This document shows positions 2,193 to 13,802 of a stretch of 13,988 bases of DNA, piece after piece. This DNA comes from Clostridiales bacterium (lineage in GTDB: Bacteria; Bacillota; Clostridia; Christensenellales; CAG-917). The translations under genes were made by a program, and so were the position numbers. The notes beneath the pieces are model-generated. The model did not search any database, had not been told where the DNA came from, and worked only from the letters and a program-made list of their open reading frames with translations. The DNA is taken from NCBI GenBank assembly GCA_012800805.1, contig JAAZIO010000096.1, forward strand, positions 1 to 13,988. The letters run 5' to 3'. The first letter of the stretch is position 1. Each line of letters starts with the position of its first letter.

Positions 2193-2281
2193 GGAAGAGT
2201 ATCGAAGTGGTCGTAACGAGCCGCACTCGAAATGCGGTGAACCGCAAGGTTCCGTGGGTTCGAATCCCACCTCTTCCGCCA
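2193..2281 (+). tRNA. tRNA-Ser, anticodon CGA
   Basis: An 89-nt class II tRNA. The acceptor stem is GGAAGAG with CTCTTCC (2193-2199 with 2271-2277), with discriminator G and an encoded CCA (2279-2281). The anticodon stem CCGCA/TGCGG holds the 7-nt loop CTCGAAA, so the anticodon is CGA and it reads the serine codon UCG. A long variable arm (GAACC-GCAA-GGTTC) confirms the serine class. The T arm is GTGGG-TTCGAAT-CCCAC. The gene has its own promoter and terminator and is a monocistronic unit between the repeat region and the ilv leader. Confidence 0.97.
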
Positions 2282-2407: not shown

Positions 2408-2436
2408 TTGACAGATTTTAGGTCATTTGGTAAAGT
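2408..2436 (+). promoter_or_regulatory. Promoter of the ilv-leu operon
   Basis: A consensus -35 TTGACA (2408-2413), a 17-bp spacer and TAAAGT as -10 (2431-2436), preceded by an extended TGG. Transcription should begin near 2443. That leaves about 23 nt before the leader peptide start, enough for its AAGAGGG ribosome binding site. It is the best promoter match in the window. Confidence 0.8.
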
Positions 2437-2465
2437 AAGAACAAGCATAATTAAGAGGGTTAATC

Positions 2466-2567
2466 GTGTATAACTTTATGTTGGCGATTTTAATTATTAG
2501 CATTATTAGCGTTATCGTATTATTAGGTAACGCCGTTTGCCGTTTCGCCAATAAAGTTATAAGCTAA
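2466..2567 (+). CDS. Branched-chain amino acid leader peptide (attenuator peptide)
   Basis: A 33-residue peptide starting at GTG 2466, with AAGAGGG (2453-2459) six bases before it. An in-frame ATG at 2478 lacks a ribosome binding site. Residues 6-20 read LAILIISIISVIVLL: 12 of 15 are the end products of the operon (six Ile, four Leu, two Val). Known leader peptides such as enterobacterial IlvL have this composition. The peptide itself probably has no function. Ribosome position on its Ile, Leu and Val codons would report charged tRNA levels and choose between the RNA structures described in the attenuator entry. It was too short for routine gene calling. The start choice is fairly sure; in vivo translation is inferred. 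Confidence 0.85.
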   Translation: MYNFMLAILIISIISVIVLLGNAVCRFANKVIS

Positions 2568-2625
2568 ACTGTGATTTAATTAGGTAAAGCTTAGAAACCT
2601 ACGGCGAAACAGCCGTAGGTTTTTT
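2469..2625 (+). promoter_or_regulatory. Transcription attenuator of the ilv-leu operon
   Basis: Two exclusive structures can be drawn. Structure 1: TATAACTTTAT (2469-2479) plus TGGCGA (2482-2487) pairs with TCGCCA (2545-2550) plus ATAAAGTTATA (2551-2561), 17 pairs with one 2-nt bulge, joining the first and last codons of the leader peptide. Structure 2 (antiterminator): GTTTCGCC (2542-2549) pairs with GGCGAAAC (2603-2610), and nested inside it TAGGT (2581-2585) pairs with ACCTA (2597-2601). Structure 2 uses up the 5' arm of the terminator at 2595-2622 and shares bases 2545-2549 with structure 1. Model: a ribosome stalled on the early Ile or Leu codons blocks structure 1, the antiterminator forms, and transcription continues. 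Full translation to the stop at 2565-2567, or no translation, leaves the terminator free to form. The pairings are seen in the sequence; the regulation is inferred. Confidence 0.82.
2595..2625 (+). terminator. Attenuator terminator in the ilv leader
   Basis: AAACCTACGGC (2595-2605), loop GAAACA, GCCGTAGGTTT (2612-2622), then T residues to 2625. The 11-bp G+C-containing stem should stop transcription efficiently about 180 nt after initiation, 270 nt upstream of ilvB, with no gene between promoter and terminator other than the leader peptide. Confidence 0.92.
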
Positions 2626-2894: not shown

Positions 2895-4556
2895 ATGAGA
2901 TTGAACGGAGCGGAAATCATCATCGAAACTTTGATAGAGCAGGGGATAGACACGGTATTCGGCTATCCCGGTGGTTCCGTTTTGGGGCTGTATGACGCGC
3001 TTTACAAATATCAGGGAAAGATAAAGCATTATATAACCTGTCACGAGCAGGCGGCGGCGCATGCGGCCGACGGATACGCCAGGGTAACCGGTAAACCCGG
3101 CGTGGTTTTTGCGACTTCGGGCCCCGGCGCCACAAACCTTGTTACGGGAATCGCAAACGCTTACTTGGATTCAAGCCCCGTTATAGCAATCACGGGCAAC
3201 GTGGCTACAAACCTTATCGGCCGCGACAGCTTCCAGGAAGTGGACATCTGCGGCATCACCATGCCCGTCACAAAGCACAACTTTATGGTAAAGGATGTGG
3301 AGCAGCTTGCTCCGACCATAAGAGAGGCGTTTAAAATCGCCCTTTCAGACCGTCCCGGCCCCGTGCTTATCGACGTGCCAAAAGACGTGCAGGCCGCCCT
3401 TTGCGAGTTCACCCCCATGGAAAAGGCCATGGCAAAGAGAAGGTGCATATTTGTTCAGAGCGATTTTGATGAGGCGGTAAAGCTGATAAAAGAAGCAAAG
3501 CGCCCCTTTATATATGCAGGCGGCGGCGTGGTGCTCTCCGAGGCGTCGAGCCAGCTTGAAGAGTTCGCAAACCTTATCGATGCGCCCGTCGGCGCTTCCA
3601 TGATGGGACTTACCGCTATTAAGAGCGATAATCCCCGTTTCCTTGGAATGACAGGCATGCACGGAAAATACGCAACCAACAAGCTGATGGGGGAATCCGA
3701 CCTCATTATTGCTGTCGGCACAAGGTTTTCGGACCGCGCGACGGGCAAAAAGCAGGAATTTTCAAACGGCAAAAAGGTTGTCCATATAGACATCGACCCC
3801 GCGGAAATCGGAAAGAACATACCTGCTTACGTTTCGCTTATCGGCGATGTCAAAATGATACTAAACAAGCTTATAAAAGAGATACCTAAAATAGACAACC
3901 CCGAATGGAGCAGGGAAGTGGCCGAGCTTAAAGCGGACAAAAAACACAACTGCGACATGGAAAAGGATACGCTAAACCCGCAAACCGCAATCGAGTGCGT
4001 TAATAAAGTCATGCCCGACAACATAGTGGCGACCGACGTCGGCCAGCACCAGATGTGGACCGCGCAATACTATAAGTTCAACAAGCCGAGAAGCTTTGTG
4101 ACATCGGGCGGTCTTGGAAGCATGGGCTTCGGCATGGGAGCGGCGATAGGTTCCGCTATCGGCTCAAAGGGCAGAGTTACCCTGTTTACAAGCGACGGAA
4201 GCTTCCATATGAATATGAACGAGTGCGCTACCGCCGTTACAAACAATCTGCCGCTAACGATAGTGGTTATGGATAACAACGCGCTAGGCATGGTAAGACA
4301 GTGGCAAAAACTGTTCTTTGGCGCCAGGTATTCCTGCACTACGCTTAACAGAAAGACCGACTATGTTGCTCTTGCCAAAGCGTTCGGAATGGAAGGAAAG
4401 AGAGCCGCAACACTAAAAGAGTTTGAAGAAGCTGTAATCGAGGCGAAAAACCATAACGGACCATTCCTTATACACGCAATCATAGACAGCGACCAAAAAG
4501 TTCTTCCCATGATACCGCCGAACGGCACATTCAACGACATGATACTAAAGGGATAA
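2895..4556 (+). CDS. ilvB: Acetolactate synthase, large catalytic subunit
   Basis: 553 residues, the usual length. It joins two pyruvates to 2-acetolactate (valine and leucine route) or pyruvate and 2-oxobutyrate to 2-aceto-2-hydroxybutyrate (isoleucine route), using thiamine diphosphate, Mg2+ and FAD in the cytoplasm. The N-terminal domain has GYPGG (23-27) and the catalytic glutamate in TCHEQAAAHAADGYAR (E51). ATSGPGATN follows, then a central FAD-binding domain. The C-terminal domain has the diphosphate motif starting at residue 433 and ending in DNNALGMVRQWQ (D434 and N461 as likely Mg2+ ligands). The first glycine of the usual GDG triplet is serine here (SDG, 433-435). The start has AGAGGAGAG 5-6 bases upstream. 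It is the first enzyme gene of the operon and is followed four nt later by the ribosome binding site and gene of its small subunit. Confidence 0.97.
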   Translation: MRLNGAEIIIETLIEQGIDTVFGYPGGSVLGLYDALYKYQGKIKHYITCHEQAAAHAADGYARVTGKPGVVFATSGPGATNLVTGIANAYLDSSPVIAITGNVATNLIGRDSFQEVDICGITMPVTKHNFMVKDVEQLAPTIREAFKIALSDRPGPVLIDVPKDVQAALCEFTPMEKAMAKRRCIFVQSDFDEAVKLIKEAKRPFIYAGGGVVLSEASSQLEEFANLIDAPVGASMMGLTAIKSDNPRFLGMTGMHGKYATNKLMGESDLIIAVGTRFSDRATGKKQEFSNGKKVVHIDIDPAEIGKNIPAYVSLIGDVKMILNKLIKEIPKIDNPEWSREVAELKADKKHNCDMEKDTLNPQTAIECVNKVMPDNIVATDVGQHQMWTAQYYKFNKPRSFVTSGGLGSMGFGMGAAIGSAIGSKGRVTLFTSDGSFHMNMNECATAVTNNLPLTIVVMDNNALGMVRQWQKLFFGARYSCTTLNRKTDYVALAKAFGMEGKRAATLKEFEEAVIEAKNHNGPFLIHAIIDSDQKVLPMIPPNGTFNDMILKG

Positions 4557-4566
4557 AGGAGTGAAT

Positions 4567-5115
4567 ATGAAGCAAGAAAAATACCTGTTTTCACTGCTTG
4601 TCAGAAATGAATCGGGCGTCCTGACCAGAATTTCGGGCCTCTTTGCAAGAAGGGGATACAACATCGACAGCCTGTCTGTCGGTGTGACGGAAGACGCCGC
4701 CGTTTCAAGAATGACAATCACCGCAACCTGCGACGAATACATGAAAGAGCAAATTTTAAAGCAGCTAAGCAAACTTCACGATGTAATCATCGTTGAGGCC
4801 ATGGACCTTGAAGCCACGGTTATGAGAGAGCTTCTTTTAATAAAAGTCAATGTGGCGCAAGGCGGCAGAAGCGAAATACTTGAGGCGATTTCAATCTTTA
4901 GGGCAAAAGTAGTAGACCTTACGCCCGAGTCTCTGACGGTTGAAATCACGGGAGAGAGAAACAAGTGTGACGCTTTCGTTGAATACCTAAGGCCCTTTGG
5001 CATTGCCGAGCTTTGCAGGACGGGAATAACCGCCATCAAGCGCGGAGCGGAAAGGCTGGCGGACGGAATCGGAAAGAACACCTATGAGCACATCATAGTT
5101 TCGGACGAAGAATAA
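4567..5115 (+). CDS. ilvN: Acetolactate synthase, small regulatory subunit
   Basis: 182 residues, in the normal range (160-180). It binds IlvB, stimulates it and confers valine feedback inhibition. An ACT domain covers residues about 6-77 (FSLLVRNESGVLTRISGLFA, then RRGYNIDSLSVG). A C-terminal ALS small-subunit domain follows (LLIKV, then EILEAISIFRAKVVDLTPES, then IAELCRTGITAIKRG). I chose the ATG at 4567 over the in-frame GTG at 4561, because the ribosome binding site AAAGGAG (4555-4561) overlaps the GTG but lies five bases from the ATG. The gene is ten nt after the ilvB stop, so the two subunits are probably made together. A 63-nt gap, the largest in the coding part of the operon, follows. 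Confidence 0.96.
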   Translation: MKQEKYLFSLLVRNESGVLTRISGLFARRGYNIDSLSVGVTEDAAVSRMTITATCDEYMKEQILKQLSKLHDVIIVEAMDLEATVMRELLLIKVNVAQGGRSEILEAISIFRAKVVDLTPESLTVEITGERNKCDAFVEYLRPFGIAELCRTGITAIKRGAERLADGIGKNTYEHIIVSDEE

Positions 5116-5166
5116 AAACAGATTTTAACTTCACAAAAAAATAACCAGATATTAAACGCAAAGTAA

Positions 5167-6186
<1,020 letters not shown>

Positions 6187-6187
6187 T

Positions 6188-7840
6188 ATGGAATTCAATT
6201 CGGACAAGATGAAACTTGGCGCTGAAAACGCTCCAAAAAGATCGCTCCTTAAGGCGGTTGGCCTTACCGACAAGCAGCTTAAAAAGCCCATTATTGGTAT
6301 AGTCAATTCCTTTAACGAAATCGTAGCGGGCCACATGCACCTTAACACTGTTGCAAGAGCGGTTAAAGACGGCGTTTTAGCCGCGGGCGGAGTTCCGCTT
6401 GAGTTCAACACCATTGGCGTTTGCGACGGGCTTGCCATGGGTCACGAGGGAATGAAATACTCGCTTTGCACAAGGGAGATAATCTGCGACAGCATAGAGT
6501 GCATGGTTAAAGCCCACTGCTTTGACGGTCTTGTGTTCATACCAAGCTGCGACAAAATCGTCCCGGGAATGCTTATGGCGGCGGTCAGGCTGAATATCCC
6601 TTCGATTTTTGTTTGCGGCGGCGCGATGCTCTCAATCGAGGGAAAAGACTTCAACTCTACCTATGAGGCTGTGGGAGCGTATAAGGCGGGCCAGATAACG
6701 GAGGAGGAACTGTCTGAAATCGAGTGCCTTGCGTGTCCTACCTGCGGTTCATGCTCGGGAATGTTTACGGCAAACTCCATGAACTGCCTCACAGAGGCAA
6801 TAGGAATGTCTTTAAGAGGCAACGGTACAGCCCCCGCTGTGTATTCGGAAAGGCTTAGGATAGCTAAAGCCACGGGCGAGAAAATCATGGAGCTTATAGA
6901 GAAAAACATACGCCCGAAAGATTTAATCAACGAAAAATCCGTTGAAAACGCACTCACAGTTGATATGGCGCTAGGCTGCTCGACCAACACCGTACTGCAC
7001 CTTGCCGCCATCTGCCACGAGGCCGAAGTAGGTTTTGATTTAAGCCACCTAAACGAAATAAGCGAAAAGACGCCAAATCTTTGCCGTCTGTCCCCCGCAG
7101 GAAAAGACCATGTTCAGGATTTGCACCGCGCGGGCGGAGTGTATGCGGTAATGAGCGAGCTTGATAAATTGGGGATTATAGATAAGAGCGTTATGACGGC
7201 GAACGGCAAAACCCTGGACGAGTGCTTAAGGGGAGTCAAAGTGCTGGATAACAGCGTAATAAAAAGCATTGACGAACCTTACTCGAAAACGGGCGGCCTA
7301 AGAGTGCTGTTTGGAAACCTTGCGCCAAACGGCGCGGTGGTGAAAAAGAGCGCGGTTAAAGAAAGCATGCTGCGCTTTACCGGAAAGGCAAGAGTGTTTG
7401 ACAGCGAGGAGGAGGCGGTAGGTGAAATCTATCGCGGCGGCATCAAAAAAGGCGATGTTGTTGTCATTCGCTACGAAGGGCCAAAGGGCGGCCCCGGCAT
7501 GAGGGAAATGCTGTCTCCGACATCCGCAATCGCCGGCATGGGGCTGGACGCCGATGTAGCGCTAATCACCGACGGGCGCTTTTCGGGCGCCACAAGGGGA
7601 GCGGCAATCGGCCATGTATCGCCCGAAGCCAGAGAAGGCGGTCTTATTGCCTACATCAAAGACGGAGACCTTATTGAAATAGACATTGTCAACAACTTAC
7701 TAAACCTTAAAGTGGACAGTGAGGAAATAGCGAAAAGAAAGCAAACGATGACGCTAAAGCCCGAGCCTGACATCAAAGGATATCTAGGCAGATATATGAA
7801 AACGGTAAGCTCTGCCGATAAGGGCGCGGTTCATCAATAA
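6188..7840 (+). CDS. ilvD: Dihydroxy-acid dehydratase
   Basis: 550 residues, normal length for the IlvD/Edd family. It removes water from 2,3-dihydroxy-isovalerate and -methylvalerate to give the 2-keto acid precursors of valine and isoleucine, using an Fe-S cluster and Mg2+. Cluster cysteines are recognisable: C121 in [14 protein letters not shown] (family signature) and C189 in [19 protein letters not shown] (C183, C186 and C189). The early motif [20 protein letters not shown] is also present. The C-terminal swivel domain with [12 protein letters not shown] and [13 protein letters not shown] is complete. The start ATG follows the ilvC stop by one base and must use GGAAAGAG within the ilvC 3' end. 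Because the cluster is oxygen-sensitive in many family members, an anaerobic host would be suitable, but this is only inference. Confidence 0.98.
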
Positions 7841-7854
7841 ATAAGGAGTTAGTT

Positions 7855-9363
7855 ATGAGAAATATAAAAATATTCGACACTACGCTAAGAGACGGCGAGC
7901 AAGCGCCAAAGTGCGGAATGCACCTGTCCGAGAAAATCGAGATGGCAAGGGCGCTCGAGCGCCTTAAGGTAGATGTCATCGAGGCGGGGTTCGCGATTTG
8001 CTCAAAAGGGGATTTTGAGTCCGTCCAGACCATCGCGGGCGCTATAAAGGACTGTCAGGTGGCAAGCCTTGCCCGCTGCGTTAAAGCCGACATCGACAGC
8101 GCGTATGAGGCGGTAAAGGCGGCGGTTGCGCCAAGAATTCACGTGTTCCTTGCCACCTCGCCGATACACATGCAGTATAAGCTCAAGATGTCGGAAGAAA
8201 GAGTGCTTGAAACGGTTAAAGAAATGGTTTCATACGCAAAGAGCAAGGTTTCGGACATCGAGTTTTCCGCCGAAGACGCTACCCGCTCAGAGCCGGAGTT
8301 TTTGGTTAAAGTAATTAAAACCGCGATTGCCGCGGGAGCAAAAACCATCAATATACCCGACACCGTGGGCTACATAACTCCCGGGGAGATGGGAGAGCTT
8401 ATAAGGTATCTAAAGTCCAGTGTGCCCGAACTTGACGGCGTAGACCTTTCGGTTCACTGCCACAACGACCTCGGCATGGCTGTCGCCAACTCGCTTGCCG
8501 CAGTTGCCGCAGGCGCAACTCAAGTCGAGTGTACGCTAAACGGTATCGGAGAGAGGGCGGGCAACGCGGCGCTTGAGGAAATCGTAATGTGCATCGACAC
8601 CAGAAGGGAGATGTTCAACGCAAGAACAAGGATACAGACAAACGAAATATACAGAGCAAGCAAACTGCTTTATAACATCCTCGGCATTCAGGTTCCGCTT
8701 AACAAGCCGATTGTAGGCGTCAACGCTTTCGCGCACGAAGCGGGTATTCATCAGCACGGAGTCATAGCAAACAGGCTGACTTATGAAATAATGACGCCCG
8801 AGTCCATAGGACTTCCTTCAAACCGTATGGCGTTCGGCAAGCACAGCGGCCGCCACGCGGTGGAAAAGCGTCTTGAAGAGCTGGGCTACAAACTTTCGCA
8901 AGAGGAACTCAATGAATTTTTTGAAAGCTTTAAAGCCCTTGCCGACAAAAAGAAGGTCATCAACGACTCAGACCTTGAAGCGCTTCTCAAACATAAGGCG
9001 GCGCCGTTCAAAGAGCAGGAATACCGCCTCGACCGCTTTACCATCAACAGCGGCAACTATGTTACATCTAACGCTGTTGTAAGGCTTATCTCAGGAGATG
9101 AGACTTTTGAGGAAGTAGCTATCGGCGACGGCCCCGTTGACGCGGCGTTTAAGGCAATCGATAAGATTGTTAAGGTCGTGCCGCACTCGCTTGACGACTA
9201 CTATATACAAAGCGTCACCGAGGGCAACGACGCTCTGGGCGAGGTTGTTGTTAAGATAAAGACCGCTGACGGAGTCGTTACGGGAAGAGGGCTCTCGACC
9301 GACATCATCGAAGCGAGCATACTTGCCTATATTAACGGTCTCAATAAACTGCTTGCGTATTAA
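7855..9363 (+). CDS. leuA: 2-Isopropylmalate synthase
   Basis: 502 residues, the usual length for the bacterial LeuA1 type. It condenses 2-oxoisovalerate with acetyl-CoA, the committed step of leucine synthesis. The N-terminal TIM barrel has FDTTLRDGEQ (R12, D13), IEAGF, and the metal-binding HCHNDLG (H201, H203). GIGERAGNAALEE and the HMGL C-terminal signature GIHQHGV follow. The linker region and a C-terminal regulatory domain of roughly 120 residues (from about 385, ending YINGLNKLLAY) are complete, so leucine feedback inhibition is expected. GGAG lies six bases before the ATG (AAGGAG-TTAGTT-ATG). It is the first of two HMGL-family genes in tandem; the second is more like citramalate synthase. 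Confidence 0.95.
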   Translation: MRNIKIFDTTLRDGEQAPKCGMHLSEKIEMARALERLKVDVIEAGFAICSKGDFESVQTIAGAIKDCQVASLARCVKADIDSAYEAVKAAVAPRIHVFLATSPIHMQYKLKMSEERVLETVKEMVSYAKSKVSDIEFSAEDATRSEPEFLVKVIKTAIAAGAKTINIPDTVGYITPGEMGELIRYLKSSVPELDGVDLSVHCHNDLGMAVANSLAAVAAGATQVECTLNGIGERAGNAALEEIVMCIDTRREMFNARTRIQTNEIYRASKLLYNILGIQVPLNKPIVGVNAFAHEAGIHQHGVIANRLTYEIMTPESIGLPSNRMAFGKHSGRHAVEKRLEELGYKLSQEELNEFFESFKALADKKKVINDSDLEALLKHKAAPFKEQEYRLDRFTINSGNYVTSNAVVRLISGDETFEEVAIGDGPVDAAFKAIDKIVKVVPHSLDDYYIQSVTEGNDALGEVVVKIKTADGVVTGRGLSTDIIEASILAYINGLNKLLAY

Positions 9364-9364
9364 C

Positions 9365-9380
9365 TGAGGTAACCATGTAA
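9365..9380 (+). promoter_or_regulatory. Ribosome binding site and start-stop (ATG-TAA) at cimA
   Basis: TGAGGT (9365-9370) is placed for initiation at ATG 9375, four bases on, and TAA follows directly. The element is a minimal start-stop frame. A single base, T9378, separates it from ATG-AAA-AAA. The site lies 11 nt after the leuA stop, so ribosomes arriving from leuA would meet it. Confidence 0.6.
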
Positions 9381-10949
9381 AAAGTAGAGATATTCGACAG
9401 CACATTAAGAGACGGCGCGCAAAGCGAGGGTGTTTCTTTTTCGGTGCAGGATAAACTAAATATCGTAAAGGCTCTCGATGACTTCGGGGTGACATACATC
9501 GAGGCGGGAAACCCCTACTCAAACCCTAAAGACATGGAGTTTTTCAGACGCCTTAAAGACTTCCCGTTAAAGAACGCAAAGCTTTGCGCCTTTGGAAGCA
9601 CCAGGAGAAAGTATTCACAAGCCGAGCGCGACGACAATGTCAAAGCATTGCTTGACGCCGACACTCCGGCGGTTGCGGTTTTCGGAAAGTCCTGGGACCT
9701 TCATATAAGCGAGGTTCTGGGAATTTCAAAGGAAGAAAACCTTGCTATGGTAGCGGATACCATAAGGTACCTTAAAGAGCAAGGAAAAGAGGTAATCTTT
9801 GACGCGGAGCACTTCTTTGACGGCTTTAAGTCTGACCCCGCCTGCGCAATGGAAGTTTTGAGGGCGGCGGACGAGGCGGGAGCGGATGTGCTTACCCTTT
9901 GCGACACAAACGGCGGCACGCTTCCAAGCGAAATTTACGACATCACAAAGAGGGTATGCGAGACATTCCCGGGCAAAAGGGTATCGATACACTGCCATAA
10001 CGACTCGGGCTGCGCGGTTGCGAACTCGCTGCTTGCCCTTGAGGCGGGCGCGGTTCAAGTGCAGGGAACATTTATCGGAATAGGCGAAAGGTGCGGAAAC
10101 GCTGACCTTAGCGTGATTATTCCTACCCTTACTTTAAAAAGGGGAGTCGAGTGCGTTGCGGGCGACATTTCAAAGCTTACGGAAACTGTCATAAAGCTCT
10201 ATGAGATATCAAACCTTGTAATGCCCACAAACAAGCCATACAGCGGCTCCAGCGCTTTTGCCCATAAGGGCGGAATGCATATAGACGGGGTGGACAAATG
10301 CTCAAGGTCGTTTGAGCACATAAGCCCGGAGCTTGTTGGAAACTCAAGAAGATATCTTATGAGCGAAATGAGCGGTAAGGCTACGGTGCTCTCAAAAATA
10401 AAAACGCTTGCTCCCGACCTTGACAAAAATTCGCCGCTTACCAAAGAGATTCTTGAGACCATAAAGAAGCTCGAGCACGAGGGATACCAGTTTGAGGCGG
10501 CGGACGCAAGCTTTGAGCTTATCGTTTTAAATATTCTCGGCAGGTTCAGGCCGCACTTTGAACTTCAGATGTATAAAACAAGCGGCGAGTATCCAAGGCC
10601 CAGCGGCGAGCACTCGGCTTACGCCGTGGTAAATGTAAAGGTGGGAGATAAGACGGAGACCGCGGCATCGCTTGGTAACGGCCCAGTAAACGCGTTGGAC
10701 CTTGCCTTAAGAAGAGCGCTTTCGGTATTTTACCCCATGCTGTCCGAAGTAAGGCTGACCGACTATAAGGTGCGCGTGCTCTCAGGTGACAGCGCAACGG
10801 GCGCGACCGTAAGGGTTTTGATTGAAAACACCGACGGCAAGAGCGTATGGACGACGGTTGGCGTATCCACCGACATTATTGAGGCCAGCAGGCTCGCTCT
10901 TGTCGACGCTATGGAATACTATCTTTTCAAGAGGGAGGCACAACTATAA
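9375..10949 (+). CDS. cimA: (R)-Citramalate synthase, with in-frame stop at codon 2
   Basis: From ATG 9375 the frame spans 525 codons including the stop, the normal CimA length. The sequence fits that family: [17 protein letters not shown] (residues 7-23), then [30 protein letters not shown] (H206, H208), [11 protein letters not shown] and a C-terminal allosteric domain. CimA condenses pyruvate and acetyl-CoA to citramalate, which LeuCD and LeuB convert to 2-oxobutyrate for isoleucine. The oddity is codon 2: the ATG, preceded by TGAGGT, is followed at once by TAA (9378-9380) where AAA (Lys) would give the common MKKVEIFD start. The next conventional start is GTG 9444 (codon 24). It has no clear ribosome binding site and loses the catalytic R12-D13 motif. 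No other stop or frameshift occurs. It is a recent nonsense allele, a sequence error, or a gene started in an unusual way. The stop overlaps the leuC start (TAATG). Confidence 0.85.
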
Positions 10950-12211
10950 TGGGAATGACAATGACTCAAAAAATCCTCGCGGCGCATGCGGGCAAAGAGT
11001 GCGTAAAAGGCGGGGAATATATAGAGGCAAAGCTGGACCTTGTGCTAGGTAACGATGTCACAAGCCCCGTTGCGGTAAAAGAGTTTTATAAAGCGGGTTG
11101 CGACTGCGTTTTCAACAAAGAAAAAATAGCGCTCGTAATGGACCACTTTACCCCCAATAAAGACATTAAAGCCGCAGAGCAGACAAAGACGGTTAGGGAC
11201 TTTGCCGGAAAATACAAAATCAAAAATTATTTCGATGTGGGCGAAATGGGAGTGGAGCATGCGCTTCTCCCAGAAAAAGGCCTGGTCACCGCGGGTGACC
11301 TTGTTATAGGCGCGGATAGCCACACTTGCACATACGGCGCTCTCGGCGCGTTCTCGACGGGCGTAGGCTCAACCGATATGGCGGCGGGTATGGCATACGG
11401 AAAATCGTGGTTTAAAGTTCCCACCGCAATCAAGTTCAACCTTACGGGAAAGCTTGGCAAGTGGGCAACGGGAAAGGATGTTATACTTACAATCATAGGA
11501 AAAATAGGCGTTGACGGGGCGCTTTATAAATCCATGGAGTTTGCGGGCGAGGGCGTAAAGAGCCTTAGCATAGACGACCGCTTCACAATCTGCAACATGG
11601 CAATAGAAGCGGGCGCAAAAAACGGGATATTCCCCGTTGACGACATAACGCTAAGCTACCTTAAAGAGCATGGCGACAAGGAGCCTAAAATTTACGCTGC
11701 AGACGAGGATGCGGAATACGACGAGGTCATAGATGTCGACCTTAGTAAAATTGAGCCTACCGTCGCTTTCCCCCATCTTCCTTCCAACACCAAGAGATTC
11801 GGCGAATTTGAGGGCGTAAAGATAGACCAGGTGGTCATCGGCTCATGCACAAACGGAAGATACAGCGACTTTGCTCAGGCGGCGGAAATTATGAAAGGGA
11901 AAAAGGTCGCCCCGGGAGTAAGGGTATTGATAATCCCCGCTACGCAAAAGATTTATCTTGATATGATAGAAAGCGGGCTTACAAAAATATTCATTGAGGC
12001 GGGTTGCGCCGTTTCAACGCCGACCTGTGGCCCCTGCCTTGGCGGCCACATGGGTATACTTGCAAAGGGCGAAAGATGCGTTGCCACGACAAACCGCAAC
12101 TTTGTCGGCAGAATGGGACACCCCGAAAGCGAGGTTTATCTCGCAAGCCCCTATGTCGCGGCGGCATCGGCAATCACGGGCAGAATTTCTCACCCCGATG
12201 AGGTTATGTAG
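10949..12211 (+). CDS. leuC: 3-Isopropylmalate dehydratase, large subunit
   Basis: 420 residues, the shorter aconitase-family LeuC type that pairs with short LeuD proteins (about 160 residues). It isomerises 2- to 3-isopropylmalate and, with citramalate as substrate, gives 3-methylmalate. The likely 4Fe-4S ligands are C300 in [13 protein letters not shown] and C360 and C363 in [10 protein letters not shown]. Other conserved segments are [30 protein letters not shown], and [12 protein letters not shown] near the end. The start overlaps the cimA stop by one base (TAATG), with GGGAGG about ten bases upstream. Another ATG lies two codons downstream and cannot be excluded. The overlap suggests that leuC translation depends in part on cimA translation. 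Confidence 0.97.
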
Positions 12212-12219
12212 GAGGAGTT

Positions 12220-12702
12220 ATGAAAATCACGGGCAGAATTATTAAATTTGGAGACAACGTTGATACCGATGTAATAATACCGGCAAGATATCTTAACACT
12301 TCAGACCCCAAAGAGCTTGCCGCGCACTGCATGGAGGATATCGACATAACCTTTGCCTCGCGCGTTCAAAAGGGCGACATCATTGCGGCGGGGGCAAACT
12401 TTGGGTGCGGCTCGTCAAGAGAGCATGCCCCAATCGCCATTAAAGCAAGCGGCGTCGCCTGCGTGATAGCAAAGAGCTTTGCAAGGATTTTCTTTAGGAA
12501 CTCGGTTAACATAGGACTTCCCGTTGTCGAGTTTGACGGCGAGCTTAACGAGGGCGACAGCGTGGAAATCGACTTTACAAACGGAACGGTAAAGAACCTT
12601 ACCACGGGTGAGGGAGGAAACATCAGCCCCTATCCCGAGTTTTTAAGCAAGCTTATAGACAGCGGAAACCTTTTAACCCATTTTGCAAAGGAGAATAAAT
12701 AA
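12220..12702 (+). CDS. leuD: 3-Isopropylmalate dehydratase, small subunit
   Basis: 160 residues, the short LeuD form. It supplies the swivel domain that completes the LeuC active site. Diagnostic segments are [20 protein letters not shown] near the N-terminus, [20 protein letters not shown] in the middle (substrate-recognition loop) and [19 protein letters not shown]. The ribosome binding site TAGGAGGAG is four to five bases before the ATG, among the strongest in the operon. The gene begins eight nt after leuC and overlaps the leuB start by one base. Confidence 0.97.
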
Positions 12703-13778
12703 TGGAATTTAATATAGCCGTAATCCCCGGTGACGGGGTTGGACCTGAAATAGCCTCCTCCGCGGTAAAAGTGCTTGACGCGGTGGGAGAGAAATTCGGC
12801 CATAAATTTTGCTATGACTATGTTGACGCGGGCGGCGTGTCTATAGATAAATACGGCGTGCCGATAACCGAAGAGAATATGCAAAAGTGCCTTAAGGCCG
12901 ACAGCGTACTTCTTGCGGCAGTCGGCGGATACAAGTGGGACACGCTCCCCGGGCATCTTCGCCCCGAAAGGGCGCTGCTTGGGATAAGAAAAAGCATGGG
13001 TCTGTTTGCCAACATCCGACCCGCCAGGCTGAACCCCTATCTTAAAGACGCCTGCCCCTTAAGAGCCGAGGCCGCGGATAAGGGCTTTGACATGATAATC
13101 GTAAGAGAGCTCACCGGCGGAATCTACTACGGCGCAAGAGGAAGAAGAAACGGCGAGGGCGGCGAGGAGGCGTTTGATACCGAATGTTACTCGGAAAAAG
13201 AGGTTGAAAGAATAGCCCGCGTTGCTTTTAATCTTGCGATGGGCAGAAGAAAAAAAGTAACCAGCATAGACAAGGCAAACGTTCTTGAAAGCTCAAGGCT
13301 TTGGAGAGAGGTTGTTCATAGGGTCGCAAAAGAGTATTCCGAGGTGGAGTGCTCGGATATGCTGGTGGATAACGCAGCCATGCAGCTTATCAAAAACCCT
13401 TCGCAGTTTGATGTTATAGTAACTTCCAATATGTTCGGCGACATTCTCTCCGACGAGGCTTCACAGCTTACGGGCTCAATAGGTATGCTGCCTTCCGCCT
13501 CGCTGGGTGAGGGAAAAGTGGGCCTTTATGAGCCTATTCACGGCTCCGCCCCCGATATCGCGGGAACGGACACGGTCAATCCCCTTGCCACCGTCTTGTC
13601 CGTCGCCATGATGCTAAGGCTCTCGCTTGGCCTTGAAAAAGAGGCGCAAGCGGTTGAGGAGGCCGTCGACAGCGTACTGAAAAACGGTTACAGAACGCGT
13701 GATATTTTAAATAACGGAACCTCCCCCCTTAAATGCACGGAGATGACCAGAAAGCTTATAGAAGAAATCAAAAAATAA
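12702..13778 (+). CDS. leuB: 3-Isopropylmalate dehydrogenase
   Basis: 358 residues, normal for the family. It oxidises and decarboxylates 3-isopropylmalate to 2-oxoisocaproate with NAD+; the same enzyme would process 3-methylmalate to 2-oxobutyrate when CimA is active. It has the [13 protein letters not shown] start, and the [18 protein letters not shown] segment with substrate-binding arginines. Catalytic residues are Y142 in [10 protein letters not shown] and K191 in [11 protein letters not shown], with metal ligands D223, D247 and D251 (MLVDNAAM and [11 protein letters not shown]). [16 protein letters not shown] is the family's cofactor-loop segment. AAAGGAG lies eight bases before the ATG, which overlaps the leuD stop (TAATG). 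It is the last gene of the operon; a terminator follows after four bases. Confidence 0.98.
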
Positions 13779-13782
13779 ACGG

Positions 13783-13802
13783 CCGCCGAAAGGCGGTTTT
13801 TT
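13783..13802 (+). terminator. Terminator of the ilv-leu operon
   Basis: CCGCC (13783-13787), a GAAA tetraloop, GGCGG (13792-13796) and six T residues. It begins four bases after the leuB stop codon. Confidence 0.9.

Follow-up and report, generated by a model that had tools for sequence, protein, structure and literature searches.

A probable leader-peptide attenuator in front of the ilv-leu operon in a Clostridia lineage

Attenuation by a leader has been reported for the ilv-leu operon of Staphylococcus aureus, in a paper whose excerpted text refers to predictions for Lactococcus and Streptococcus as well (PMC5794164). More widely, leader peptides in place of T-boxes have been noted in Firmicutes in the excerpts of one study (PMC2965389), and those of another give cases of leader attenuation in actinobacteria (PMC1262725). 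One route to low basal readthrough proposed in the sections of the source cited here is to have the stop codon lie far downstream within region II (PMC1183508). For the leader of the lineage treated below, no literature appeared among the matches listed, which cover few subscription journals. Here, we describe a window (the whole stretch of 13,988 nt that was analysed, contig JAAZIO010000096.1 of a Clostridiales bacterium) which, judged from its sequence and that of its relatives, very probably carries a ribosome-mediated transcription attenuator that senses the charging of tRNA-Ile, tRNA-Leu and tRNA-Val and controls a nine-gene ilv-leu operon. Classical attenuation, a known kind of switch and not a new mechanism, is the best explanation of the locus. 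The first-pass annotation had proposed attenuation of this operon and considered it unusual for Bacillota; comparison with relatives supports the proposal, but the view of it as unusual gives way to cases already reported in the excerpts of two papers (PMC5794164, PMC5864092).

Table 1 Features of the leader region and operon in the window
Feature	Position	Strand	Basis or remark
tRNA-Ser	2193-2281		only Rfam match of the window
Terminator-like site after tRNA-Ser	2281-2307
Sigma-70-type promoter, TTGACA 2408-2413 / TAAAGT 2431-2436, spacing 17	2408..2436	+	sequence, promoter scan
Shine-Dalgarno AGAGGG, GTG 6 nt downstream	2454..2459	+	sequence
Leader peptide frame, 33 codons + stop (GTG 2466-2468, stop 2565-2567)	2466..2567	+
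5' side of end-to-end helix, candidate protector (region 1)	2469..2487	+	partner 2545-2561
Mid-peptide hairpin within Ile/Val/Leu codons, arms 2509-2516 and 2526-2533	2509..2533	+	putative RNA polymerase pause hairpin
Antiterminator segment (region 2), inside peptide gene	2542..2549	+	partner 2603-2610
Intrinsic terminator hairpin (regions 3 and 4), stem 2594-2605/2612-2623	2594..2623	+	dG -19.7
Bases of terminator loop and apical stem that pair with antiterminator segment	2603..2610	+	pairing prediction
T run of terminator	2620-2625	+	sequence
ilvB-ilvN-ilvC-ilvD-leuA-cimA-leuC-leuD-leuB, controlled genes	2895..13778	+	NCBIfam matches
Terminator-like site downstream of leuB	13781-13798

Promoter, peptide gene and terminator follow one another in the order first described (2408-2626). 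None of 200 shuffles folds as stably as 2443-2630 (z -5.6), and the same is true of 2501-2630 (z -4.85). An intrinsic terminator stands between the leader frame and the first gene, and the products of the operon genes, by their NCBIfam matches, make Ile, Leu and Val, all three end products; the nine genes are probably read as one transcript. In cimA (9375-9446), an in-frame TAA comes directly after a likely start codon, the ATG at 9375; the listed frame opens at GTG 9444, and its family match begins at profile position 23. The TAA is either a genuine lesion or a wrong base in the assembly. Elsewhere in the window, a 74-nt direct repeat (99%) containing a terminator-like hairpin lies at 1336-1571, and a 53-nt repeat (87%) occurs at 1449 and 2104 (2104-2156). 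Queries with HisG and the TrpE N-terminal domain, directed towards further attenuators, gave no match in this genome, which is 73% complete.

The leader frame is preceded by a Shine-Dalgarno sequence and is rich in end-product codons, with Ile (7), Leu (4) and Val (4) making up 15 of its 33 residues and, as the first-pass annotation had counted, 12 of residues 6-20. For Leu the frame uses TTA three times and TTG once, each codon accounting for 6% of the Leu codons of the operon, as if uncommon codons had been chosen in the leader, a suggestion that comes from one gene. Across the set of relatives described below, leaders are 25-41 codons long, all three branched-chain amino acids (BCAA) are present in 33/33, and an alignment of 29 leader peptides has a mean column identity of 26%. 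The frame could also be read as a small trans-acting membrane protein with the hairpin as its ordinary terminator, the operon being served by a separate promoter in the A-rich 2626-2894. Its core is hydrophobic and would be long enough for one membrane helix, and in the window a spacer of 269 nt (50% A) separates the terminator from ilvB, against at most 150 nt after the terminator in 27 of the 33 leaders read. We consider this reading very improbable: the 14-residue cores of the 33 leaders are 79% Ile/Leu/Val, with 0.2% Phe, 0.4% Met, 2.7% Ala and almost no Trp, and the peptides diverge as stated, yet the RNA complementarity is kept against synonymous resampling. Against the separate promoter stand a terminator-ilvB gap of just 23-60 nt in 19 of the 33 leaders and a promoter scan (cut-off 9 of 12) that finds no site between 2437 and 2894.

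The complete fold contains the 17-pair helix that had been proposed to join the two ends of the peptide gene (2469-2487 with 2545-2561), plus two more pairs, at a probability of 0.88; in the window's nascent RNA lacking the terminator 3' arm, its probability is 0.0. Of the antiterminator, the proposed core stands: 2542-2549 and 2603-2610 are fully complementary (dG -11.4) and pair in nascent RNA with a probability of 0.98-1.0, taking from the terminator the loop and only three bases of the 5' arm. The core and the end-to-end helix have bases 2545-2549 in common, as the first-pass annotation had stated. The additional antiterminator helix, 2581-2585 with 2597-2601, is not supported, having a probability of 0.02 together with the core; it reaches at most 0.83, and only when the core is unavailable. 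Measured against its relatives, the antiterminator of the window is moderate, with z of -1.8 and -1.4 against shuffles and synonymous resampling and 1.0 in the nascent-RNA comparison, and among 32 partners its own takes 6th place. The mid-peptide hairpin, absent from the first-pass annotation, has a counterpart in most relatives.

Relatives were collected by IlvB searches of 60 genomes, of which 35 matched, of named genomes, from which the best 80 loci were taken, and of 396 members of the order, 124 of them with E <=1e-150. A first batch comprised 136 upstream regions including the window, of which 3 were too short and 133 were scanned with a detector that required, within the last 600 nt, a stretch of 12 residues with 7 or more Ile/Leu/Val, a Shine-Dalgarno-like word and a hairpin of -10 kcal/mol or below with a T run. 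This search for Leu/Ile/Val-rich frames upstream of ilvB found 29 positive loci (window included), and neither the 133 reverse complements nor 399 shuffles gave any. By IlvB identity, the positives comprise 23/27 loci at 58% or more, 4/12 at 55-58% and 2/94 below; once leaders added by eye are counted, all 27 loci at 58% or more carry one. The detector missed L117 and L124 (both at 58% or more, recognised by eye), L033 (a leader with a TTG start and no visible Shine-Dalgarno) and L036 (two leaders in series before leuA, there the gene before ilvB); the leader of L004 is also a by-eye addition. A looser detector with no Shine-Dalgarno requirement, run on 80 further upstream regions from the 396-genome set, gave 12 positives, 9 of which were accepted (eight in family f31, plus L238, whose antiterminator is weak at z 0.4), and L189, L213 and L216 were set aside as doubtful. 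L213 and L216, from two genomes of one genus, have similar short Ile/Leu/Val-containing frames and a terminator, with no Shine-Dalgarno.

By manual count, the leader occurs in 30 of 119 genomes of the order, in 8 families and 17 genera, the 119 being those of the 124 genomes whose upstream region was analysed (shorter than 160 nt in two). The RNA model R1 matches 20/396 genomes at E <=0.01: nine members of its own alignment, two with known leaders (G131, G006), one with a confirmed leader (G125) and eight unconfirmed. The leader is common to a group of mostly uncultured bacteria, among which Oribacterium sinus DSM 17245 is a named strain that has one. At L034, L035 and L036, the operon is preceded by two BCAA leaders in series, with their terminators. 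The records of L033, L034 and L035 are labelled Oligosphaeraceae, Lentisphaerae or Verrucomicrobia; their IlvB falls inside the leader-bearing tree group and the leader is present, which reflects either transfer or wrong binning.

In all, 33 leaders at 31 loci were read, with statistics on 32 (L032, a near copy of L116, was dropped); L031 and L038, whose peptides are the same as those of L114 and L121, stand outside the 33. A terminator lies downstream of 44/44 leaders read, 14-45 nt (median 25) after the stop codon in the 32 leaders. Of 30 first leaders, 26 have a promoter-like site upstream that scores 9 or more of 12 matches, against 4.7 expected from shuffles (the second leaders of L034 and L035 were left out of this count). 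The late codons pair with the 5' arm and loop of their own terminator at a mean of -17.7 kcal/mol, and with those of other leaders at -11.6 kcal/mol (32 leaders; z -11.0, 0/10000 permutations as good). For the two ends of the frame (R1:R2) the matched and mismatched values are -20.3 and -14.7 (z -8.9, 0/10000). Because shared composition could help such permutations, we added comparisons with each leader's own shuffles and with synonymous codon resampling, which gave Stouffer scores of -13.4 and -9.2 for the antiterminator and -8.6 and -7.9 for the end-to-end helix. Against resampling, no element has a stronger combined score than the mid-peptide hairpin (-11.9, 32 leaders). Individually, z falls below -1 against resampling in 26/32 leaders for the antiterminator, 24/32 for the hairpin and 19/32 for the end-to-end helix. 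All these Stouffer and permutation scores overstate the evidence, since related leaders are not independent, and they were chosen over a covariation count because alignment A2 does not keep the antiterminator columns in register. L113 and L128 are the weakest, without a convincing antiterminator; L118 has a weak one, as does L002 in the nascent-RNA comparison only. A lack of conserved peptide composition or helices in relatives, named in the first-pass annotation as what would count against attenuation, was looked for, and the hypothesis survived with these exceptions. What can be read from the aligned leaders, then, is the elements, their conservation and a complementarity of the late codons to their own terminator loop and apical stem that is retained while the peptides diverge.

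Predictions of nascent RNA by ribosome position fit the proposed switch. The terminator arm and loop are paired upstream at a mean of 0.73 with a ribosome stalled in the BCAA block, 0.14 with one at the stop codon and 0.57 with none; the antiterminator segment is predicted to be free on stalling and covered at the stop. The stalled value exceeds the at-stop value by more than 0.1 in 32/32 leaders, a contrast that is partly built in because a ribosome at the stop leaves less upstream RNA unoccupied, and exceeds the value without a ribosome by that margin in only 15/32. With the upstream stretch shuffled, occupancy is 0.47; the true sequence is higher in 31/32 leaders, with z above 1 in 27. In the window, the core forms at 0.98-1.0 at the seven stall positions tried (codons 9 to 21) and also at 1.0 without a ribosome. 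The ends of the end-to-end helix are kept across leaders, yet in the window's nascent RNA this candidate protector does not lower antiterminator occupancy.

Once the complete terminator is present, it beats the antiterminator of the window in every ribosome state (0.98-1.0), and with a stalled ribosome it holds at least half in 24/32 leaders. As the terminator wins at equilibrium in all states, the switch would be kinetic. The same calculation gives an equilibrium terminator of 0.70-1.00 in seven E. coli leaders, so this result does not separate the window from them. That the antiterminator loses at equilibrium would also suit a scheme in which translation of the leader controls readthrough through ribosome-released polymerase pausing, or through Rho, with the mid-peptide hairpin as the main element; the resampling score of that hairpin points the same way. 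Such a scheme is nevertheless hard to credit, given that antiterminator complementarity is kept across families and that the terminator found after every leader is an intrinsic one.

The distribution of T-boxes bears on a further alternative, in which the operon answers to a T-box, or to some other leader that binds tRNA or a metabolite, and the frame has no role in its control. Of the 216 upstream loci (136 + 80), 135 were given to Rfam at the gathering cut-off. A T-box precedes ilvB in 25/99 scanned leaderless loci (of 173), which keeps the idea in view, and in 0/36 scanned leader loci (43 carry the leader). In the window, the tRNA is the sole Rfam family found and RF00230 (T-box) is not matched; the first-pass annotation had likewise seen no T-box features. 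None was found in its genome (G000; 73% complete, and the filters lose weak matches), and the same search gave matches at E <=0.001 in 44/60 genomes, 24 of them over the cut-off. Control of this operon by such a leader is accordingly a most remote prospect, less probable still than the two readings above. Elsewhere in leader-bearing genomes T-boxes do occur (two in G005, two in G006, five in G047). For leader versus T-box, a Fisher test gives p 2.6e-4, as a guide only, the loci being related and some near-identical. On an IlvB tree of 135 rows (FastTree only, L077 left out), on which gain and loss are not distinguishable, the leader label changes 2 times against the T-box rows (17.2 in shuffles, 0/500 as low) and 4 times against all other rows. 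One tree group has the leader in 27/28 rows, the exception being L036, whose leaders precede leuA.

In the attenuation model that we prefer, RNA polymerase would start near 2443 and a ribosome would start on the 33-codon leader. A shortage of charged tRNA for Ile, Leu or Val would stall the ribosome in codons 6-20 and so leave 2542-2549 free to pair with the emerging 2603-2610; this pairing would delay or block the terminator, and the operon would be read. A ribosome at the stop codon would instead cover 2542-2549, the terminator would form and transcription would end near 2625. With no ribosome, the end-to-end helix may act as a protector that sequesters part of 2542-2549 and favours termination, and the mid-peptide hairpin may serve in timing as a polymerase pause site. 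More tentatively, and with the balance leaning somewhat against it, the leaders might form an undescribed family of BCAA attenuators that stands in place of the T-box in one Clostridia IlvB lineage, built from three elements (an end-to-end protector, a hairpin within the control codons and an in-frame, loop-directed antiterminator), with the control-codon hairpin as a pause signal and with two attenuators in series in some members.

The comparison indicates that a branch of the Clostridia senses BCAA by translation, with a geometry like that of E. coli ilv leaders, while sister lineages have a T-box before ilvB. The T-box leader of ilv operons (RF00230) resembles the attenuator as a sensor of tRNA charging before the same gene, but the two were not found together (0/36), and the split between them along the IlvB tree is an opening to study the swap of tRNA-charging sensors. 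Among described leaders, Corynebacterium ilvB-II and the ilvB-OMG motif are alike in having a BCAA-rich uORF before ilvB and in the attenuation proposed in the excerpted source (PMC10272879). This likeness is one of description; on the leader loci scanned here, tRNA alone among the families of the Rfam library used gave a match at the cut-off. The S. aureus ilv-leu leader, as excerpted (PMC5794164), shares the BCAA-rich peptide, the terminator, the phylum Bacillota and the lack of a T-box, but differs in its 26-aa Ile/Leu peptide, a terminator 52 nt past the stop, ilvD as first gene, an antiterminator proposed to take the U tract and joint action with CodY. Listeria Rli60 is also a ribosome-mediated ilv-leu attenuator with a terminator more stable than the antiterminator (-17.1 against -10.3 in the excerpts of PMC5864092), but it has a 13-aa leader and structures downstream of the peptide, and acts with CodY. 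The E. coli leaders trpL, hisL and pheL are unlike the window, with gaps of 42-61 nt and a pairing outside or nearly outside the frame, and in leuL, where the gap is 21, the same measure shows hardly any antiterminator (occupancy 0.02). E. coli ilvL (ilvXGMEDA), ivbL (ilvBN) and thrL do resemble it; they belong to a different phylum and differ in operon order and content, the likeness being one of geometry: leaders of 21-32 codons, a terminator 20-24 nt past the stop, an antiterminator pairing mostly in-frame (0.80-1.00) and a terminator favoured at equilibrium.
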